A stretch of 22,471 nucleotides of DNA. Source: a virus. Positions 2,400-19,160 of the stretch are shown here, in pieces. Positions within the stretch are counted from its first letter, which is position 1. The number at the start of each line of letters is the position of its first letter. The stretch lies in the IMG/VR virus record IMGVR_UViG_3300042507_006812, positions 1 to 22,471 of that record, one strand, 5' to 3'. The position numbers were made by a program, and so were the translations under genes. The notes beneath the pieces were generated by a model. It saw only the letters and a program-made list of their open reading frames with translations. It ran no database searches and was not told the origin of the DNA.

Positions 2400-3767
2400 A
2401 TGAAACTTTCAGAATTTAAAAAACTTATCCGCCAGAGTGTTATGGAGGAAGTGAATGAAGATCAGAATATATCTAATGTTGATTCATATTATGGCTTTCT
2501 TTCAGAAGAACCAATTGACGAAAACGCTCTTGATAGAATAGAACAAGCTATAAAATCAGGAAAAATTAACCCCAAAACTGTAGAAGCCGCTGCCAAAAAA
2601 GCCCAAAGTGGTGATTCCTCAGAATTAGCAGCTCTTATGGTAATTGGTCAAGGTTTTACCAAACTCGAAGAAGCAGAGGAAGAAGAAGAAATAACTGATA
2701 CCGAAGTCGACATCACTGAACCCGCTCCAGAAGCCCCAGATATGGGAGCAGGAGATATGACCTCTTTTGCAAGTGAACCTACATACACCCCAGAAGAAGC
2801 TGAGGTTATGGATAGTCTTGACAACGCATTAAAGCAAGCCCAAGATTTAGGTGACGAAAAATTATCAACTTTAATAGGAAACATTATTACCTACTTTACA
2901 AGACAGCACGTTGTAAAAGAAGGTAGCGCTGGTAGAAAAAAACACTATAAAGGTGCTGTTAAAGACGATAAAGATCAAATTTCAAAACTAAAAAAAGACA
3001 TGAAATTCGATAAAAAGCAATTACAGAAAGAATCACTTGAAATTCTTAAAATGAAAAAACTAGCTGGCCTTTTAAAGGAAGGTGAGTATGCTAAAGCATT
3101 ATTGAGAGAAAATTTAGATTATACTTTTGAAGAATTAAAAGGAAAAACAGTTATCTTAGCTTTAATTGAAGACGGAGATGAAAACAAAGAATTTATTGTA
3201 ATCAACACTCCTGAAGACTATAGAGAATTAGAAAAAACCGTTAAAGAATACGAAGATGAGGGTATCTTAGATGAGTATTATCCTGTATTAAATAAAGGAC
3301 AACGTTTAAGAGAAGAAAAAAATCTAACCCCTCTCCAGCAATATATCTATGATTATGAAATAGAAATAAGTGATAAAGAATTTGTTGATCAAGAATTAGA
3401 AAATATTAAAAAATTAAATACTCCTCAGGATGTATATAATTACTATGCTGTTTATAGAGGTTGGGAACAAGATAAAGATTTCAAAAATGATCTAAAAAAT
3501 ATTTACAGACAAGTAAGTAAAAAATTTATAAAAGAAGAAAACAGTGATGTTTACATGAGCTTTGATAAAGAAAACTGGTTTGATAAAGAAGATAAACCTT
3601 ACGCAGGTGGCTTTGATTTTGATTATGATGAAGAAACATTTGATGATTTTGATTCATTTATATCAAAATACAGTGATAAACAAAGATCATTCAGACCCTC
3701 TGACAAATCTATATTTGATACTTATAAAAACAAGTACAATAACATGATGATGCGTAAAAGAAAATAA
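2400..3767 (+). CDS. Putative two-part precursor protein with an internal targeting/cleavage leader
   Basis: This 455-residue protein starts MKLSEFKKLIRQSVMEE, similar to the gene before it. Residues 1-205 form an acidic first part, including a Glu/Asp/Pro-rich linker and a helical stretch (about 138-175). At 210-238 lies an internal copy of the leader that opens the gene at 3800: KESLEILKMKKLAGLLKE|GE, with L225-K226-E227 before Gly, a good prohead-protease site. Residues 239-455 form a second acidic, aromatic-rich domain of unknown function. The internal leader suggests either fusion of two leader-bearing genes or a precursor cut into two cargo proteins. No enzymatic motif is visible. Confidence 0.8.
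   Translation: MKLSEFKKLIRQSVMEEVNEDQNISNVDSYYGFLSEEPIDENALDRIEQAIKSGKINPKTVEAAAKKAQSGDSSELAALMVIGQGFTKLEEAEEEEEITDTEVDITEPAPEAPDMGAGDMTSFASEPTYTPEEAEVMDSLDNALKQAQDLGDEKLSTLIGNIITYFTRQHVVKEGSAGRKKHYKGAVKDDKDQISKLKKDMKFDKKQLQKESLEILKMKKLAGLLKEGEYAKALLRENLDYTFEELKGKTVILALIEDGDENKEFIVINTPEDYRELEKTVKEYEDEGILDEYYPVLNKGQRLREEKNLTPLQQYIYDYEIEISDKEFVDQELENIKKLNTPQDVYNYYAVYRGWEQDKDFKNDLKNIYRQVSKKFIKEENSDVYMSFDKENWFDKEDKPYAGGFDFDYDEETFDDFDSFISKYSDKQRSFRPSDKSIFDTYKNKYNNMMMRKRK
3027..3113 (+). repeat. Direct repeat copy A (internal KKLAGLL leader)
   Basis: These 87 bases encode residues 210-238 of the 2400-3767 protein and align without gaps to 3803-3889. I count about 10 mismatches in 87 positions. Five of them leave the residue unchanged, so the peptide is nearly conserved. 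It encodes the KMKKLAGLLKE|GEYAKALL leader-like peptide. Confidence 0.88.
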
Positions 3768-9144: not shown

Positions 9145-10005
9145 ATGGATAAAGTAGATGTAAAAGCCACTATCAAAAAACATAACATTGGACCTGGATC
9201 TCGTCTTGTTTTCAAAAAAGATCCTCAAGCATATTATGTAAAAAGTTGGGTAGGAGACATACAAAATGTTCCCGACGACAAAATAGCTGTGTTTGTAACT
9301 ACTAATAGTGGAGATACTTATAAAAAATTTTTAAGGAATCTAGTAAAAGTAGGAAACAGTGAACCTATTATGAAAACATTAAATGAAGGCAAATGCAACT
9401 GTGGATGTGGTGGTTGTTCTAAAGCACCATTATTAAACGAACAGCTTGTATCACGTCAAGGGTTGTCTGAGGGTATACTCTATCATATAGACAATAAAAA
9501 ACCGCTTACAGAACATTTATACCGTGCCGGTTCGGAAAAATACTTTCAACTTTGGTCTGAAGCTAGAATGCTTTACTCTCGTGATCTTTTAGAAGTAAAA
9601 GGTGACGATTTAGATATTCTTTTAGAAACAGATTTGGGCCATTTTGGCCTCTATGAAAATCAACAAGTTCCCTTAGATTTTATTTTTGAAGAAATCGAAG
9701 AAGAACTAGACGAAGCCAAAAAGGAAAAAAAGAAAAACCCACCATTAAACAAACCAAAACGTGGTGGTTCTAAAAAATTCTATGTTTACGTAAGAGACCC
9801 AAAATCAGGTAACATTAAAAAGGTATCCTTCGGTCAAGAAGGTATGTCTGCTAAAATCAATAATTCAAAAGCAAGAGCTGCTTTCTCAAAACGCCATAAT
9901 TGCCCCGCTAAAAAGGACAAAACTAAAGCTTCATATTGGAGCTGCCGTCTTCCAAGATACGCTAAACAATTAGGTCTTAAATCTAACTTTTCAGGATTCT
10001 GGTGA
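9145..10005 (+). CDS. Modular putative virion protein with CxCxCxxC cluster and basic C-terminal module
   Basis: The 286-residue protein has four visible parts. Residues 1-75 are a small basic domain. A tight Cys cluster follows: C84, C86, C88 and C91 (CNCGCGGC), a possible metal site. Residues 124-185 contain LYRAGSEKYFQLWSEARMLY and an acidic stretch. The last part (about 191-286) is a basic module beginning GGSKKFYVYVRDPKSG with KRHNC and YWSCR. I recall the last two parts as recurrent in marine phage proteins of unknown function. Predicted prohead-protease sites lie between them: L79-N80-E81|G, L107-S108-E109|G and L188-D189-E190|A. The leader itself has no such site. A packaged DNA-binding precursor is an attractive but unproven reading. 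Confidence 0.83.
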   Translation: MDKVDVKATIKKHNIGPGSRLVFKKDPQAYYVKSWVGDIQNVPDDKIAVFVTTNSGDTYKKFLRNLVKVGNSEPIMKTLNEGKCNCGCGGCSKAPLLNEQLVSRQGLSEGILYHIDNKKPLTEHLYRAGSEKYFQLWSEARMLYSRDLLEVKGDDLDILLETDLGHFGLYENQQVPLDFIFEEIEEELDEAKKEKKKNPPLNKPKRGGSKKFYVYVRDPKSGNIKKVSFGQEGMSAKINNSKARAAFSKRHNCPAKKDKTKASYWSCRLPRYAKQLGLKSNFSGFW

Positions 10006-10006
10006 T

Positions 10007-12214
10007 ATGATCAAATTAATCAACATACTACACGAAATAAAAATTTTTTCTTCTTTTTTTCAAATAGCTAAAGATGAAGATGAAGAATCTCAATTTTATG
10101 AAGAAACTGATTATGTAGGCTCAGGCTTAACAGGGTATATTCTTGGTAAGATGTCTTATAATGAGTTAGCTCGAAAATTAGGCGCTGAAGCTACTCTCGA
10201 AAATGATGAAAGTTATTCAGATGGAGGTTCTAAAGTATCAGCTGAATGGATAATTAAAGTAGGTGAGCAGGGAGCAACACCTCAAATTGTTAGAATATAT
10301 GATTATAAAGGAGATGTTGCTGCTCCCATAGAAAGAGATGAAAAAATAATATGGCATGTTGGGGGTAACAAAGAAGCTGCTCAAAAACTATTTTCGAGTT
10401 TAGGGTTAAAATTTACTGATGATTTTAGAGAAGCTTATGATTTAGGTTTATTTGAATCTTTACTCTTAGAAATTTCTGAAAAGGTTATCAAACAAAAATT
10501 TGAAGAATATAAAAACCAAGTTGTCAATCTAGATTACGATGCTGTAAGGTATTACGTTGAAAGATTTGACCAAATTAAAAGTGGTTTAAAAAGTAGAGTT
10601 CAAAGAGGAGACGAATTAGTTTTAACTCTTTTACCTAAAGAATTAAAAACTGAAGAAGCTCTAAATAAATTATTTTATATTGATATTCTTAAATGGCGAA
10701 AGTTTAGAGATCTAGAAAAACTTATTGATGGTGCTTTCTCAAAACAAATAGCTAAAAAGAAAGAAGAAGAATTAGTCAATTCAGTAGAAACTGATGCTGA
10801 CTTAATTTATTCTAAAAATGGCATCGAAATATATAAAGGAGATGCTGAACATAAATGTATCAAATACGGAAAAAGTGGATATTACTCATGGTGTATCTCA
10901 CGCCCCCAAGGAAGTCTATATGGATCCTACAGATTTGGGGGTACCGGTGGTAGTAGAATGTTCTATTTTGTATTTGATAGAAATAGACCTGATAGAAAAA
11001 CAGATGGAAAGTTTGAAGATCCCTACCATGCAATGGTAATTCATAAATATGAGAATGGTACTTATGCTTTAACCCTTGCACCTAATACAGGTGATAAACC
11101 CTTTAAAACCTACCAAGATCTAGTAAATTCCCTCCCAGAAGACTTAAAAAATGCTTTAAAAGATAAAGAAAATTTATTTAGTTACATTCCTCCTAGTAAA
11201 GAAGAAATTGAAGTTCAAGCATTAGCAGGTAAAGAGTTAACCCCTACCCAATTTGCAGAGTTAAGTTATGAAGGAAAAAAACTTTATGTTAGAAACAATG
11301 CTAATGATTATAGAAAATTAACTCCAGCTATAGTAAAGTTTTTAGACCTAGATTTAAAAAATGAAGCTATTAACAACAATAGAAAATTTACTTTTGATGA
11401 GTTAAAATCTAATCTAGGGTTAGTAAAAAGATATGCAGATTATAGATATACAAGATACCCTGATGAACCTCTTCCATACAAATTTTTACCTTACCTAAAA
11501 CCTGATTTACAACAAACTTATTACGATAAATTTGAGGAAGATTATTTATCTTTTGATGAAATTGAAGAATATTTTTCTAAAGACATTTTAAATCAATATA
11601 TAGAAAAACAAATAAACAATCTTGATTTCTTACCTAAAGAGGCTGTTAAATACATGACTCCGCAGCAAAAAGAAATCTATGATATATATTCAAAAAGTTT
11701 TTCTGATATTGAATACAATCTTGATTCTAATCACAATTCAAGTGAAGATAGAATGGCCCCACAAAGGACAGTAAGAATCCGTCCTATATCTACTAAAAAT
11801 TTCCTTAGCCTCTCCCCAGAAGAAAGAAATGAGTATATAAATTTCCTTAAAGAATATATTACAGATCCCAATTCTCAAAATCAGTATTTAGCAGTATCAT
11901 TAGGTATTCCTACAAGTTTTGAACAAAACGGTAAATTATATTTTATTACTCCTAATGGAACAACCTATAATGCCGACTTTAATATTATAGATTCTGAAGG
12001 GAATGTTGTTAAAAACAAAGTTAAAAAGATTTCTTTCTCTAAAGATGGTAAACCAGCCGATATCCGATCATCAGGAACGTCACTTAAAGGTTCTGATTCA
12101 TTTTACTTAAAGCCTGGAGTTGATTATGATAAAATTGAAATAGATGGTCAACCCTTAGAATTACAGGAAAACCAGGTCTATCAGAGATTTAAAAAATTAG
12201 CTGGATTATTATGA
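10007..12214 (+). CDS. Large putative packaged protein with MIKLxxIL leader
   Basis: The 735-residue protein starts MIKLINILHE|IKI, a leader with L8-H9-E10 that matches the MIKLxxILxE family in this block. Residues 1-270 are mixed helical. A central conserved-looking core has C284 and the string GYYSWCIS (C296), followed by YRFGGTGGSRMFYFVFDRN and a strand-rich segment. I recall a W-C core of this sort in other phage proteins without known function. The middle third is helical and acidic; the last 100 residues look like a beta-rich domain. It ends VYQRFKKLAGLL, matching the start of the KKLAGLL leader at 3800. It overlaps the next start by four bases (ATGA). The size and leader would suit a T4 Alt-like injected protein, but there is no ADP-ribosyltransferase signature. 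Confidence 0.82.
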   Translation: MIKLINILHEIKIFSSFFQIAKDEDEESQFYEETDYVGSGLTGYILGKMSYNELARKLGAEATLENDESYSDGGSKVSAEWIIKVGEQGATPQIVRIYDYKGDVAAPIERDEKIIWHVGGNKEAAQKLFSSLGLKFTDDFREAYDLGLFESLLLEISEKVIKQKFEEYKNQVVNLDYDAVRYYVERFDQIKSGLKSRVQRGDELVLTLLPKELKTEEALNKLFYIDILKWRKFRDLEKLIDGAFSKQIAKKKEEELVNSVETDADLIYSKNGIEIYKGDAEHKCIKYGKSGYYSWCISRPQGSLYGSYRFGGTGGSRMFYFVFDRNRPDRKTDGKFEDPYHAMVIHKYENGTYALTLAPNTGDKPFKTYQDLVNSLPEDLKNALKDKENLFSYIPPSKEEIEVQALAGKELTPTQFAELSYEGKKLYVRNNANDYRKLTPAIVKFLDLDLKNEAINNNRKFTFDELKSNLGLVKRYADYRYTRYPDEPLPYKFLPYLKPDLQQTYYDKFEEDYLSFDEIEEYFSKDILNQYIEKQINNLDFLPKEAVKYMTPQQKEIYDIYSKSFSDIEYNLDSNHNSSEDRMAPQRTVRIRPISTKNFLSLSPEERNEYINFLKEYITDPNSQNQYLAVSLGIPTSFEQNGKLYFITPNGTTYNADFNIIDSEGNVVKNKVKKISFSKDGKPADIRSSGTSLKGSDSFYLKPGVDYDKIEIDGQPLELQENQVYQRFKKLAGLL

Positions 12215-12615: not shown

Positions 12616-13131
12616 ATGTTTGACTTAAAAAAATATCTTTCTAATAATCCTCTCTTAAATGAGATTAAAGTAAAGGCCCCCAATACATTCTCTCAGGACG
12701 ATATCGAATTTTTAAACATTTTAGCCGATGAATCTTATGGAGAAGGTGTTAGTGTGATCGACATTTACCAACCTCTGAGTGAAACATATGATCTAGAAGA
12801 TTTTGAATACATCTCAGACGAAGACTATGATAGTAAAAAACATATAGCTATAAAACATTTTCTTAAAAACTTTAGCAGTGGGGTATATATTTTACCTGAC
12901 ACAAATTCTAACCTATTTGGACGAGAATGGGAAGCTCCGGGGGCCCCAGCCAACAATGCATATTACACTAGAGTAATTATTGATCAAGATAACGAATTAG
13001 TACAAATAGAAACCCCCCATATAGATGACGATGGGGAATATTATGTAGGTTGGTTTGACTCTGATACAAACTATCATCCAGATACAGCTAATTTTACTGA
13101 AGATGGAGAATATACTGGAAACGCTGAGTAA
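12616..13131 (+). CDS. Putative internal virion protein with LNEIKVK leader
   Basis: The 171-residue protein starts MFDLKKYLSNNPLLNE|IKVKAP. As in the gene before it, the predicted cut is after E16, and IKVK follows. The mature part is very acidic, with many Asp, Glu and Tyr, and seems to hold a strand-rich domain around residues 85-150 (for example YYTRVIIDQDNELVQIE). I do not recognise it. The final 29 bases overlap the start of the nucleotidyltransferase-like gene in another frame. Confidence 0.77.
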   Translation: MFDLKKYLSNNPLLNEIKVKAPNTFSQDDIEFLNILADESYGEGVSVIDIYQPLSETYDLEDFEYISDEDYDSKKHIAIKHFLKNFSSGVYILPDTNSNLFGREWEAPGAPANNAYYTRVIIDQDNELVQIETPHIDDDGEYYVGWFDSDTNYHPDTANFTEDGEYTGNAE

Positions 13132-13480
13132 ATTTCAAAAAAGACACCCTAATATTTATATTGGGGGAAGTGTTTCTTTAATTTTACAAAACGTAATCCC
13201 ATATAGAATACCTAAAGACATAGATATTATTTCAACTAATCGTATTCATATTTACGATTTATTTGAAGTTAAAAAAGAAAAACATAGGTTAATAAAAAAG
13301 TTTAAACATGATGGATTAAAATTTGATTTATTTATTAATCCAAATGCCCAATATATTGAATATATTTATAATGGATGTGTTTTAAAATTATCTCCCATTG
13401 ATGAAATTTATGAATGGAAATTAAAAGAAAAAAACATTCAAACAGAAAAACATATAAACGATTTACAATATTATACATGA
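13103..13480 (+). CDS. Minimal nucleotidyltransferase-like protein
   Basis: This 125-residue protein has a compact nucleotidyltransferase signature: G21-G22-S23, then D39-x-D41 (PKDIDII), then D75 (LKFDLFIN). This Gly-Gly-Ser plus three-Asp pattern is the catalytic core of the pol-beta-type superfamily, including the MNT and AbiEii-like groups. The start chosen is the ATG at 13103 (MENILETLSKF), because the frame upstream of it overlaps acidic coding sequence of the previous gene and looks non-native. It overlaps that gene by 29 bases and the next by four. Possible roles include transfer of a nucleotide to a protein, RNA or small molecule; the substrate is unknown. It has no clear (L/I)xE leader. 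Confidence 0.72.
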   Translation: MENILETLSKFQKRHPNIYIGGSVSLILQNVIPYRIPKDIDIISTNRIHIYDLFEVKKEKHRLIKKFKHDGLKFDLFINPNAQYIEYIYNGCVLKLSPIDEIYEWKLKEKNIQTEKHINDLQYYT

Positions 13481-13794
13481 TTAAGTTAACTGATATTCTA
13501 CAAGAAGCAAAAGAATCATTTGAGGATTTTGCTGTAACACGAGGTAAAGGAGCAGCTAAAATTGCTGAAAACGCTGAAGAAAAAGGTGGTTTATCTCTAT
13601 TAACATGGCATCACTTTAAAGTAAAAGCTCCATATTATAAAAAAGCAGCTGAAGGTAAATTCGATAAAGAAGCAGCTAAAAAAGAATTCGATCAAACCCT
13701 AAAGAAAATATCACTAGGAATGACCCAAACAGAATTTCAACGTGAAGTTGGACGTTTAGAGGTATTAGGTGAACTATTAATTAGAGAAAAATGA
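13477..13794 (+). CDS. Small putative internal virion protein with MIKLTDILQE leader
   Basis: The 105-residue protein begins MIKLTDILQE|AKES. L8-Q9-E10 before Ala closely fits the T4 capsid-targeting leader and (L/I)-x-E|A cleavage rule. The rest is basic and helical, rich in Lys, Ala and Glu (for example RGKGAAKIAENAEEKGG). I recall similar proteins in marine T4-like phages, with no known function. The start is the ATG in the ATGA overlap with the nucleotidyltransferase-like gene, not an upstream ATG at 13414 that lies inside that gene. Its stop again overlaps the next start (ATGA). Confidence 0.82.
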   Translation: MIKLTDILQEAKESFEDFAVTRGKGAAKIAENAEEKGGLSLLTWHHFKVKAPYYKKAAEGKFDKEAAKKEFDQTLKKISLGMTQTEFQREVGRLEVLGELLIREK

Positions 13795-14216
13795 TAAAAC
13801 TAGCAAACATACTAAGTGAAGCTGAACTAAATAAATGCCCAGCCCCAACCCAAAACATTGAACTTAACCTTCAAAACAGACAGAAGGCAATCAATGAATA
13901 CGGGTATGGTCCTCTAAACCCTAACGAACCAAACAACAAATTCTGGCAAGCTAAAGTAGACATGTGGAAGCTTGATTCTGTAGAAGAAGCTAAAACATCA
14001 CTCTGTGGTAATTGTGCTGCATTTGATATTACTACTAAAACATTAGATTGTATAGCTAAAGGAATAGGTAATGATGGTGGATCAGAAGACCCATTTGATG
14101 TTATTAAAGCTGGTAAATTAGGATATTGTAGATTCTTAAAATTTAAATGCGCAGCAGCTCGAACTTGCGATGCTTGGGTTGTTGGTGGTCCTGTTACAGA
14201 TGATAAAACCACATAA
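13791..14216 (+). CDS. Cys-rich putative packaged protein with MIKLANILSE leader
   Basis: This 141-residue protein starts MIKLANILSE|AEL, a leader with L8-S9-E10 before Ala. It has seven Cys, including CGNC, LDC and a final CRFLKFKCAAARTCDAW. The spacing recalls small Fe-S or zinc proteins, and the C-terminal part has a weak resemblance to high-potential iron-sulfur proteins, but I cannot assign a cofactor. The segment NRQKAINEYGYGPLNP and the Cys-rich tail are conserved in T4-like marine phages as I recall them. It lies between two other MIKL-leader genes, joined by an ATGA overlap upstream and one base downstream. Confidence 0.82.
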   Translation: MIKLANILSEAELNKCPAPTQNIELNLQNRQKAINEYGYGPLNPNEPNNKFWQAKVDMWKLDSVEEAKTSLCGNCAAFDITTKTLDCIAKGIGNDGGSEDPFDVIKAGKLGYCRFLKFKCAAARTCDAWVVGGPVTDDKTT

Positions 14217-14217
14217 A

Positions 14218-14775
14218 ATGATTAAACTATCAGACATATTAAAAGAAATAAATATCCAACAAAAAGATCAGTTAGGATCAGGACAAAGAAGCTCAGTATA
14301 TCCTTATAACAAAGATCCCGAAAAAATAATAAAAACTGTTTCTGATTATGAGGATGATAATGAATTTGATTTAGAACAAATTAAAATATTCCAAAAACAT
14401 CCTGATATATTTCCTTTAGTATATAAAGTAACTGATAAATATGCTATATTAGAAAAATTAAATGTAGGTAAAGCATATGATGAAATGGTATCATTAGAGC
14501 TTCAAGTAGAAAAAACAAATAATGTTTTATCTAAGTTTATGCAAGATGAAAAATATGAATACGATGATTTAGCAGGTGTTTTATATAATTTTTTAAAAGA
14601 ATATCCTGAAAGTGAATTAAATTCTTTATATAGTAAAATTAAAGATAGTAATAAACTTAAAACTTGGGTTTCTTTAATAAAAAAAGCTATAAATTTAATA
14701 AATAATGATTTAGATATTCATGGTGAACAATTTGGTTATAGTAAAGATGGTAAATTAAAATTATTAGATTTTTAA
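14218..14775 (+). CDS. Minimal protein-kinase-like protein with MIKLSDILKE leader
   Basis: The start is the ATG at 14218, one base after the previous stop; an upstream in-frame ATG lies inside that gene. The 185-residue protein begins MIKLSDILKE|INI. Kinase-like elements then appear in order: a Gly-rich loop (LGSGQRSSVYPY, 19-30), a candidate beta-3 lysine (K39 in IIKTV), a hinge-like YAILEKL, a catalytic-loop-like D166-I-H-G-E-Q171, and LLDF at the very end (D184). The 18-residue gap between D166 and D184 equals that between the catalytic and DFG aspartates of PKA. The chain stops at this Asp-Phe, so most of the C-lobe is missing; Gln replaces the usual Asn at D+5. It could be a very small kinase or a pseudokinase. 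Confidence 0.68.
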   Translation: MIKLSDILKEINIQQKDQLGSGQRSSVYPYNKDPEKIIKTVSDYEDDNEFDLEQIKIFQKHPDIFPLVYKVTDKYAILEKLNVGKAYDEMVSLELQVEKTNNVLSKFMQDEKYEYDDLAGVLYNFLKEYPESELNSLYSKIKDSNKLKTWVSLIKKAINLINNDLDIHGEQFGYSKDGKLKLLDF

Positions 14776-14826: not shown

Positions 14827-15129
14827 ATGATTAAACTATCCGAGAAGATAAAGAATATAAAATTTAATATAACTCCATACACTGACATAGAAGTTACAGA
14901 CAAATACATCATCCGAGAATTTACCGAAAACATTGACCCAATAGAGTTAATGTGGCATAGAGATGATGAAGATAGAACAATTGAGATTCTAGGAGAAACA
15001 GACTGGTTAATCCAATTAGACGATCAGTTGCCATCTCAAATAAAAGGCCCTATATTTATACCCCGACATATGTGGCACCGAACCATAAAAGGAACAGGAC
15101 CACTTAAAGTCAAAATACATTTAGACTGA
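14827..15129 (+). CDS. Small cupin-like protein
   Basis: This 100-residue protein carries WHRDDEDRTIEIL near the middle, followed by GPIFIPRHMWHRTIKGTG, an arrangement of His residues and beta-strand-forming segments typical of a single-domain cupin-like barrel. I recall similar short proteins in cyanophages and other marine phages without an assigned function. Its N-terminus, MIKLSEKIKNIK, shares the MIKL opening of its neighbours but lacks the (L/I)-x-E site, so it is probably not processed in the same way. It has a good Shine-Dalgarno sequence and is followed by a terminator, making it the last gene of its transcription unit. Confidence 0.78.
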   Translation: MIKLSEKIKNIKFNITPYTDIEVTDKYIIREFTENIDPIELMWHRDDEDRTIEILGETDWLIQLDDQLPSQIKGPIFIPRHMWHRTIKGTGPLKVKIHLD

Positions 15130-16848: not shown

Positions 16849-17919
16849 ATGGAATATAAATCGTTACCCATACCCCGTAAAGGAGATATTTACCCTAAAG
16901 GATGGGGGTATGAACTTTGGATAGCTAATTCACCTGAATATTGTGGGAAACTATTAGTCTTTAATAAAGATAAAAAGTTTTCAATGCATTACCATATGAT
17001 TAAAAGTGAATCTTGGTATGTTGCTAAAGGTGAATTTCAATATAGATGGATTAATACTGAAACTACAGAGGTCAATACAAATTATCTTAAAGAAGGAGAT
17101 GTAGTTGATCTAGAAAGAGGCCAACCCCACCAGTTAACAGCTTTAACTGAAGGTGCTACTATATTTGAAATTTCTACCCAACATTTTAACTATGATAGTT
17201 ATAGAATTATCAAAGGAGATGTTTTAGATGATTCAACCCCTAGTAGAGATTTAACTCGATTTTGGTCTTTAAACGATACCCAAATTGATTTTACTCAAAT
17301 GGATATGAGTCTTTCTCAAAGTGAAGTAGAATCAACCTATGGTTGGGAAGCTTGCATGTATTGGGCTAACATAGTCCATACTGAACTTGACAATGAATTT
17401 TTCCAAATCAACCCCGGAGATGTTTATGTAGATCTAGGATCTAATGTAGGAATGAATTGCGCTTATGCTGAAACCAAAGGAGCCTCTAAAATTTATGCTA
17501 TTGAACCTGACCCAGATGTTTTTAAAGCTTTGGAAAAGAATGCAGGTGATAATTGGGTTTTAGAGAACATAGCAATTTCTGATAAAGTAGGATTTATGGA
17601 AATTAGCATGTGGCCCAACTGGCAAGTTAAAAGAATTCTTCGTTGCACTACTTTAGATGAGATTGTTAAAAAACACAACATTGAAAAAATTGATTATCTA
17701 AAAATAGATATTGAAGGGGGAGAAAAAGAAGCAATTCATGGTATAAGTCCTGAAACTTGGGCTAAAGTTGATAAAATTTTTATTGAATTTCATGAAGATG
17801 TTTTTGGTTATAGCAATGAAGCTAGAACTGAGTTTATTAAAAATATTCAACAACATGGCTTTAATTTTCATGTGAAACTTGGAAATCCACAAAGCTTTTT
17901 GTATTTTTGGAAATCATGA
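16849..17919 (+). CDS. Cupin-FkbM methyltransferase fusion
   Basis: This 356-residue protein joins two domains. Residues 1-125 are a cupin with metal-ligand candidates H47, H49, E54 and H94 (MHYHMIKSE and QPHQL), similar to the cupin of mannose-6-phosphate isomerase-type enzymes. Residues 165-350 form a class I methyltransferase of the FkbM type, with the SAM-binding VDLGSNVG (194-201), E219 in AIEPDPD, and DYLKIDIEGGE further on. FkbM-type enzymes methylate sugars and related hydroxyl groups, so modification of a surface sugar or small metabolite is plausible. The start is the first ATG after the previous stop. The stop overlaps the next ATG by four bases. Confidence 0.9.
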   Translation: MEYKSLPIPRKGDIYPKGWGYELWIANSPEYCGKLLVFNKDKKFSMHYHMIKSESWYVAKGEFQYRWINTETTEVNTNYLKEGDVVDLERGQPHQLTALTEGATIFEISTQHFNYDSYRIIKGDVLDDSTPSRDLTRFWSLNDTQIDFTQMDMSLSQSEVESTYGWEACMYWANIVHTELDNEFFQINPGDVYVDLGSNVGMNCAYAETKGASKIYAIEPDPDVFKALEKNAGDNWVLENIAISDKVGFMEISMWPNWQVKRILRCTTLDEIVKKHNIEKIDYLKIDIEGGEKEAIHGISPETWAKVDKIFIEFHEDVFGYSNEARTEFIKNIQQHGFNFHVKLGNPQSFLYFWKS

Positions 17920-18469: not shown

Positions 18470-18826
18470 ATGTTGACTTGGATTAAAAATAACCCTCAGT
18501 TATCAGTAATTTTTACGTTGTTGGGAATTGTTCTTTTTCAATTGTTTTTTATTCCTAACACATATAAAAGAGCCTTTAAAAAGCAATTAGAAAATCAAAG
18601 AATAGAAAGTGAAGCTAGGATAAAAGATTTAGAAGCACATTCTGATTCTTTAGCTTTGGTAAATATTAAACTACGTGCTGAAGCAGATTCTATTTTAGTG
18701 GAGTTAGATAAAGAGGAAAAACGACGTAAAAAAGCAAAAGATGAATACGATAAAAAGATTTCTGAGCTTGGCAAGCTTTCTACTGCTGAGCTTCCCGGCT
18801 ATTTCTCAAAGCGTTACAGTCGTTAA
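18470..18826 (+). CDS. Putative inner-membrane spanin-like protein
   Basis: This 118-residue protein has one N-terminal transmembrane segment (about residues 12-29, VIFTLLGIVLFQLFF), preceded by a short cytoplasmic end, and then a long charged helical or coiled-coil region rich in Glu, Lys and Arg. This is the layout of an i-spanin (Rz-type). In phages of Gram-negative hosts, spanins disrupt the outer membrane during lysis. The next gene starts inside this one in another frame, as Rz1 does in Rz. No endolysin or holin is visible nearby, so the function is inferred from topology and gene order. Confidence 0.65.
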   Translation: MLTWIKNNPQLSVIFTLLGIVLFQLFFIPNTYKRAFKKQLENQRIESEARIKDLEAHSDSLALVNIKLRAEADSILVELDKEEKRRKKAKDEYDKKISELGKLSTAELPGYFSKRYSR

Positions 18827-19160
18827 CGGAGATACTCTTATTTGTTTTCCTGAAACTATGGTCCGCCAAATAATGGTAGATCTAGAAACAGGTGATTTTT
18901 GTCAAAAAGAAAAGCAAAGTTATTTACGTGATATTGAAAATCTTCGTAAACTTATTTCAATTAGAGAAAAAGAACATGAAAATACTGCGGGTCGTTTAAG
19001 CGATTGTCAAGGTGTAGTTAAAGAAAAAGATTTACAAATCAAATTAAAAGAAGACGAAATTAAAGCTCTTAAAAAAGAAAAAGGAGCTAAATTTTGGAAT
19101 GGGATAGGTATAGGAGCTGGTGGTAGCTTAGCTGTAGTAGCTATCTTTCTTCTCCTATAA
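18741..19160 (+). CDS. Putative secreted/membrane-anchored spanin partner
   Basis: The 139-residue protein starts 86 bases inside the preceding gene in another frame. It has a signal peptide of about 22 residues (MNTIKRFLSLASFLLLSFPA, cut near AIS-Q), a middle coiled coil, and a C-terminal transmembrane segment (about 120-139, ending LAVVAIFLLL). There is no lipobox Cys, so it is not a classical Rz1-type lipoprotein. Bacteroidetes phages often carry signal-peptide proteins with this C-terminal anchor, as I recall. The nested arrangement suggests a spanin-like pair acting together. The Ser-Gln after the predicted cleavage site is a minor clue to a Bacteroidetes host. Confidence 0.65.
   Translation: MNTIKRFLSLASFLLLSFPAISQSVTVVNGDTLICFPETMVRQIMVDLETGDFCQKEKQSYLRDIENLRKLISIREKEHENTAGRLSDCQGVVKEKDLQIKLKEDEIKALKKEKGAKFWNGIGIGAGGSLAVVAIFLLL

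Follow-up and report, generated by a model that had tools for sequence, protein, structure and literature searches.

A minimal kinase-like phage protein with a capsid-targeting-like leader and a conserved end at the DFG-type aspartate

The window, the whole 22,471-nucleotide (22.5 kb) virus record analyzed here, is a fragment of a phage genome. An open reading frame on its + strand (14218–14775) encodes a protein of 185 amino acids that starts MIKLSDILKE, has E79 as its hinge residue and finishes with the stretch ...DIHGEQFGYSKDGKLKLLDF, of which LLDF forms the end. The elements listed by the first-pass annotation (the MIKLSDILKE leader, a Gly-rich loop, a candidate Lys at K39, D166-x4-Q171 and the terminal LLDF) are all present in the translation. 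The ATG at 14218 lies one base past the stop codon of the upstream gene (14214–14216). A second copy of the gene, in contig L002, is 98% identical; it departs from the window sequence upstream of this ATG and terminates at the same codon. We place the start at 14218 because of that upstream stop and because the identity with L002 begins at this ATG; for the latter reason an upstream in-frame ATG at 14170 is not supported. The window also encodes a T4-type terminase. Its nearest isolated relative is that of Flavobacterium phage immuto (58% identity), which points to a Bacteroidota bacterium, of the Flavobacterium type, as the probable host. A search of 36 related records with phrog_18305, the family that matches the 185-residue protein, gave no match, and the gene therefore looks accessory in its clade.

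Table 1. Features of the mini-kinase locus and of window genes with the same type of leader
Feature	Position	Strand	Evidence
Unrelated 735-aa protein, leader MIKLINILHE	10007..12214	+	leader comparison
Unrelated protein, same leader type, MIKLTDILQE	13477..13794	+	leader comparison
Unrelated protein directly upstream of the mini-kinase, leader MIKLANILSE	13791..14216	+	leader comparison
Leader MIKLSDILKE, resembling a capsid-targeting sequence; cleavage predicted after Glu10	14218..14247	+	h4/h7/h8/E10 fit; leader common to unrelated proteins; exchange
Predicted mature mini-kinase, residues 11–185	14248..14772	+	AlphaFold2; PDB fold matches; phrog_18305
Gly-rich loop and strand 2, residues 20–29, GSGQRSSVYP	14275..14304	+	G22 and Y28 in 20/20 hinge-selected rows
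K39, beta3 lysine	14332..14334	+	20/20 family rows
PDIFPLVYK...AILEKLN, end of helix C to hinge, residues 62–82	14401..14463	+	family signature
DIHGEQFGYSKDGKLKLLDF: catalytic loop with D166 and Q171; DFG-type D184-F185 as last two residues	14713..14772	+	conservation; TTK/PRPK alignment
Double stop TAA TAA	14773..14778	+	same position in L002
Small HxWHR protein, cupin-like by eye, conserved downstream neighbor	14827..15129	+	synteny

The HxWHR protein also lies directly downstream of the kinase-like gene in L002, L090, L125, L126 and L131, and further downstream in L099; in L125, L126 and L131 its start overlaps the stop of the mini-kinase gene (TAATG). By eye, immuto gp098 is a relative of it. 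Several other genes merit a brief description. A small protein at 13103–13480 has a Pol-beta nucleotidyltransferase-like motif (GGSVSLIL...PKDIDII; phrog_33731, E = 3.7e-8); nucleotidyltransferases of this kind are also found as cargo in polyvalent proteins. The product of 16849–17919 is a cupin fused to an FkbM methyltransferase, of which the L002 counterpart (2623–3081) is a cupin alone. Overlapping genes for a membrane/coiled-coil protein and a signal-peptide protein (18470–18826 and 18741–19160) resemble a spanin pair and have no PHROG match. Contig L097 (7833–11677) carries at least six tandem paralogues that start MT[RQ]EEFIExLE..GYSYEIxGDKIVVT.

The only library family that scored well against the 185-residue protein was phrog_18305, annotated "kinase" (E = 1.9e-6, residues 3–115); its profile is 284 positions long, and the match ends before the catalytic loop. 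Single-protein searches of Pfam, NCBIfam and the sequences in the PDB gave nothing above threshold. A profile built from nine relatives matched mainly kinases in the PDB, weakly (E = 0.25), in a register that ends at the DF. The canonical kinase family PF00069 matched 1 of 22 members, below the Pfam cut-off (E = 0.25), and a defense-system library matched a single family member (E = 0.023).

Structure prediction and a fold search, both suggested by the first-pass annotation, were carried out. AlphaFold2 gave a pLDDT of 85.6 and a pTM of 0.79 with 13 relatives in the alignment, and 89.1 and 0.84 with 22. Both models predict a two-lobed kinase fold around an ATP site, and the PDB matches listed, which span model residues 1–185 or 6–185, are all protein or small-molecule kinases. 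PRPK was the best (Z = 8.9, rmsd 3.0–3.2 Å over 137–141 aligned residues), with TTK at Z = 8.7. Residue 185 of the model aligns to TTK 665 and PRPK 184, which we take to be the Phe of DFG. The predicted site contains the Gly-rich loop, the beta3 Lys, the catalytic Asp, the residue at position 171 (Gln in the window protein in place of Asn) and the DFG-type Asp. Between the hinge and the catalytic loop, where kinases usually have short helices, residues 83–160 form an all-helical block. The activation segment, the APE motif and helices F–I of canonical PF00069 kinases are absent, as the chain ends at F185. The 18-residue distance from D166 to D184 does equal the spacing in PKA, as had been pointed out earlier, but such spacing is common among kinases and weak evidence by itself. 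On the strength of an independent family, the predicted structure and the leader exchange described below, a kinase fold with the full predicted set of ATP- and Mg-binding residues, behind a capsid-targeting-like leader, is well supported.

Relatives were sought in 2.9 million viral contigs and 84,980 prokaryote genomes. Scanning the viral contigs for DxHxx[NQ]xG followed by DF and a stop found a divergent family, but this pattern presupposes the end. With the stop requirement removed, 13 loci were recovered, most of which end at the DF and the rest 7–8 residues later. A third scan relied on the hinge pattern alone (P[KEDN]xF[PA]...EKL[ND]), without catalytic motif or stop, so that G22, K39, D166 and D184 played no part in the selection; the pattern occurs once in the window, where none is expected by chance. 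It returned 23 viral stretches, of which 21 belong to the family and two are by eye chance matches (IspD and transaldolase). Among the prokaryote genomes it gave 34 matches and no relative; the open frames read, all but those of five near-duplicate Micromonospora matches, were unrelated proteins or short chance frames. Another scan of genome contigs gave no matches, and tblastn with three family members as queries against 50,697 phage genomes turned up no convincing relative in any isolate.

The hinge-selected relatives share 24–48% identity with the window protein. In each of the 19 with a complete C terminus, the chain stops one residue past the DFG-type Asp, with Phe (8), Ile (10) or Tyr (1) as the last residue. 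G22, Y28, K39, G173, K181, L183 and D184 are each present in 20/20 rows; D166 is present in 19/20, the exception being shifted by one residue, and position 171 reads as Asn or Gln in every row. Estimates of dN/dS were approximately 0.16–0.43 in 8 of 9 pairs (the ninth had too few changes), which indicates a coding sequence under purifying selection; the comparison of the window with L002, with six changes, was uninformative. The other two frames downstream of the gene hold nothing common to all relatives, and frameshifting or readthrough into a hidden C-lobe was rejected for want of a shared downstream frame. The shared end, the selection and the lack of a shared downstream frame lead us to regard the chain as complete as it stands. 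The stop at the DF to which the first pass had drawn attention is an end that the family conserves, not a defect.

The leader resembles the capsid-targeting sequence (CTS) of T4 internal proteins, a ten-residue stretch that the prohead protease removes; its positions 4 and 7 are used for targeting, and 8 and 10 for processing (PMC9026906). T-even internal proteins are diverse, and the CTS alone is conserved among them (PMC3012670). MIKLSDILKE is hydrophobic at positions 4, 7 and 8 and has Glu at position 10, and so fits position by position; it is modeled as a helix, the least confident block of the AlphaFold2 model. As annotated, 3 of the 28 window genes fit this h4-h7-h8-E10 pattern against 0.08 expected, and none of 5000 shuffles reached three. 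A fourth protein fits once its start is set at 13477. The gp21-type prohead protease (PF03420) was found in all six related records searched; its gene was not seen in the window fragment. By eye, the capsid, scaffold and protease proteins of immuto have [ILV]xE sites near their N termini. A separate observation concerns three proteins (window 9145–10005; L095 1015–1683; L099 1485–2681) in which a second leader-like site, LNE/LNES, lies internally, after a CNCGCxxC motif.

The leader behaves as a unit distinct from the protein that carries it. In L099, MIKLIDILKE stands on the kinase and on two unrelated neighbors, and in L092 the kinase-like protein and two neighbors share a different leader, MRDQYKILAE. 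The 14 leaders of the MI[KR]L type all have Leu8 and Glu10. Two relatives (L137 and L138) start MKKSxLxxxIKEEIxKVLNE and five others (L127, L128, L134, L136 and L140) start MI[KR]LxxLLKE, on bodies that are 77–84% identical in the cross pairs compared; the leaders are joined to these bodies exactly after the Glu, and on the tree the leader must have changed inside supported clades. The sequences thus give good support for an exchangeable module of capsid-targeting type. T4 IPI–IPIII and Alt likewise combine a short leader with hydrophobic and Glu positions, removal by a gp21-type protease and diverse cargo. They differ in that no kinase is among them. The comparison with injected T4 Alt made in the first-pass annotation concerns delivery only, as Alt is an ADP-ribosyltransferase. 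We found no virion-packaged phage kinase in the open-access literature.

Phage immuto has a related short protein, gp093 (NC_055915.1 103366–103806; 146 residues, annotated as hypothetical), with the leader MISIYNILKE, a Gly-rich loop and the end GKIKIIDV*. Its N-lobe is similar to that of the window family (hhalign E = 1.7e-5, probability 79%), but it is shorter and lacks an Asp at the position of D166. Relatives of gp093 occur in 32 viral loci (among them L085 8367–8804 and L175–L205), and the complete ones read end [IV]DV*. Proteins of this type in immuto-like phages have Ser, Leu or Arg at the D166 position, so not every such protein would be a catalyst; kinase-like proteins reduced to this size, with the metal-binding Asp at the end, exist in at least two forms, one of them probably non-catalytic. 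A third type (L088, L089 and L096), found with the stop in the pattern, consists of open frames of 257–394 residues that end FDVMDF*. A hypothetical protein of jumbo phage RaK2 (NC_019526.1 241615–242199) is also short and kinase-like, with about 30 residues after an RDYG motif.

The closest precedent is Kinase-PolyVal (PF18762), which lost the whole C-terminal subdomain and kept the active site (Iyer et al., 2017; PMC5512222), a feature that the window family shares. It occurs in (pro)phages of the Verrucomicrobia-Chlamydia group and Bacteroidetes, also as a stand-alone protein, and is predicted to be injected (PMC5512222). We compared members fetched from Bacteroidota genomes (L208–L211 among them). 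They end 7–14 residues after the Asp, whereas the window family ends at D184+1 and carries a T4-type leader. None of 21 records scored above the PF18762 cut-off (best single member E = 0.017), and hhalign of the window family against a three-member Kinase-PolyVal profile gave a probability of 0.4% (E = 0.16) and nothing beyond the Gly-rich loop and beta3. Signature residues also disagree: the Gln of the last N-lobe strand is Lys80 in 20/20 rows of the window family, which lacks both the HRD-type His two residues before D166 and the insert between a conserved His and the Asp. The Glu before strand 2 is absent from the window protein (GSGQRSSVY), unlike L090, L094, L097 and L125, which carry GxGxEHxVY. 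Membership in Kinase-PolyVal was rejected on the cut-off, the profile comparison and these residues. In sequence terms it is a new and unnamed family, restricted to phages, of an already known kind, the C-lobe-less phage kinases.

Other known kinases offer partial likenesses. YrbL (PF10707) is a short bacterial kinase-like protein with weak matches in 5 of 22 members (best E = 0.005); the window protein scores 13.7 bits against a cut-off of 31.5, and its catalytic region is unmatched. OspG, NleH2 and SteC have a reduced C-lobe and are delivered into a target cell, and the first two also appear among the structural matches, but all three keep a residual C-lobe after DFG and have another delivery route and host. 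Among fold matches, PRPK/Bud32 and the RIO kinases (Z = 7.3–7.7 for RIO) rank first or nearly so, but these proteins extend far past DFG and are 9–14% identical to the window protein.

Our preferred interpretation, to which we give a probability of roughly 55%, is that a T4-superfamily phage carries the protein in its head as an accessory internal component and delivers this minimal kinase together with its genome. We infer a route of docking in the prohead core, cleavage after Glu10, ejection and phosphotransfer to a host target. In this view the first ten residues are a capsid-targeting sequence by which the protein would dock in the prohead core, and the gp21-type protease would cut after Glu10. 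The released core (residues 11–185: N-lobe, helical mini C-lobe at 83–160, catalytic loop and metal-binding Asp) would be packed with the DNA and ejected; small size may, speculatively, suit passage through the portal. In the new host, ATP-Mg would be bound through K39, Q171 and D184, and D166 would serve as the base for phosphorylating a host target early in infection, with the inserted helices or the target itself replacing the missing substrate lobe.

That the packaged protein is also catalytically active, as an N-lobe, helical mini C-lobe and catalytic loop ending at the DFG Asp plus one residue, is a tentative proposal to which we give less than even odds. Several points count against the preferred interpretation. 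The segment after DF, which forms the substrate site in full-size kinases, is missing. Helix C has no conserved Glu column to pair with the beta3 Lys, as judged by eye in a gappy alignment. All matches of the family to curated sequence families fall below cut-off. The structural Z scores of 8–9 are modest, yet every row listed is a kinase. SteC loses its activity when truncated at residue 375 or 377, and OspG needs an E2-ubiquitin partner (PMC13395416); with the C-lobe missing, these precedents leave activity uncertain.

The absent substrate lobe and the unconserved helix-C Glu would suit a packaged pseudoenzyme or decoy that binds nucleotide and blocks a host kinase, toxin or defense protein, in the manner of T4 IPI, an injected inhibitor of a restriction enzyme (PMC9026906). 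So would gp093, in which D166 is lost while the N-lobe motifs and an end of this type are retained. We nevertheless consider this reading rather improbable, as a pure decoy would not need D166, N/Q171 and D184, and these are kept in essentially all hinge-selected relatives. Activity could instead depend on a partner, or on a dimer that supplies the C-lobe, as the presence of partner-dependent OspG (PMC13395416), together with NleH2, among the structural matches might suggest. No conserved neighbor is C-lobe-like, the one that is conserved being the small cupin-like protein, and we regard such dependence as distinctly unlikely.

Similarly low is the chance that the leader is a shared helix with some other purpose and that the kinase acts in the infected cell after late expression. 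L104, L094 and L129, which have no clear ten-residue leader, could be read in this way. The position-by-position fit to the T4 CTS, the exchange exactly after Glu, the gp21-type protease in relatives and the proximity of the genes to the terminase speak for capsid targeting. From an end that falls just where the activation segment should begin, one might imagine what is left of a full-length kinase after decay or a frameshift; this we regard as refuted for practical purposes by the same end in 19/19 independently found complete relatives, by purifying selection and by the lack of shared downstream coding.

The family is a phage-only kinase family that lies above the cut-off of no curated protein family, and its fixed end raises the question of how little of a kinase still transfers phosphate. 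Leader exchange after Glu offers a sequence-only way to read the head-loaded, injected proteins of uncultured T4-like phages, proteins that would be host-takeover or anti-defense cargo. Packaging is testable in the culturable phage immuto, whose related protein has a leader and an end of the same kind. If the proposal is correct, few natural kinases would be smaller than these proteins, and a kinase would serve as capsid-targeted cargo that swaps packaging tags.
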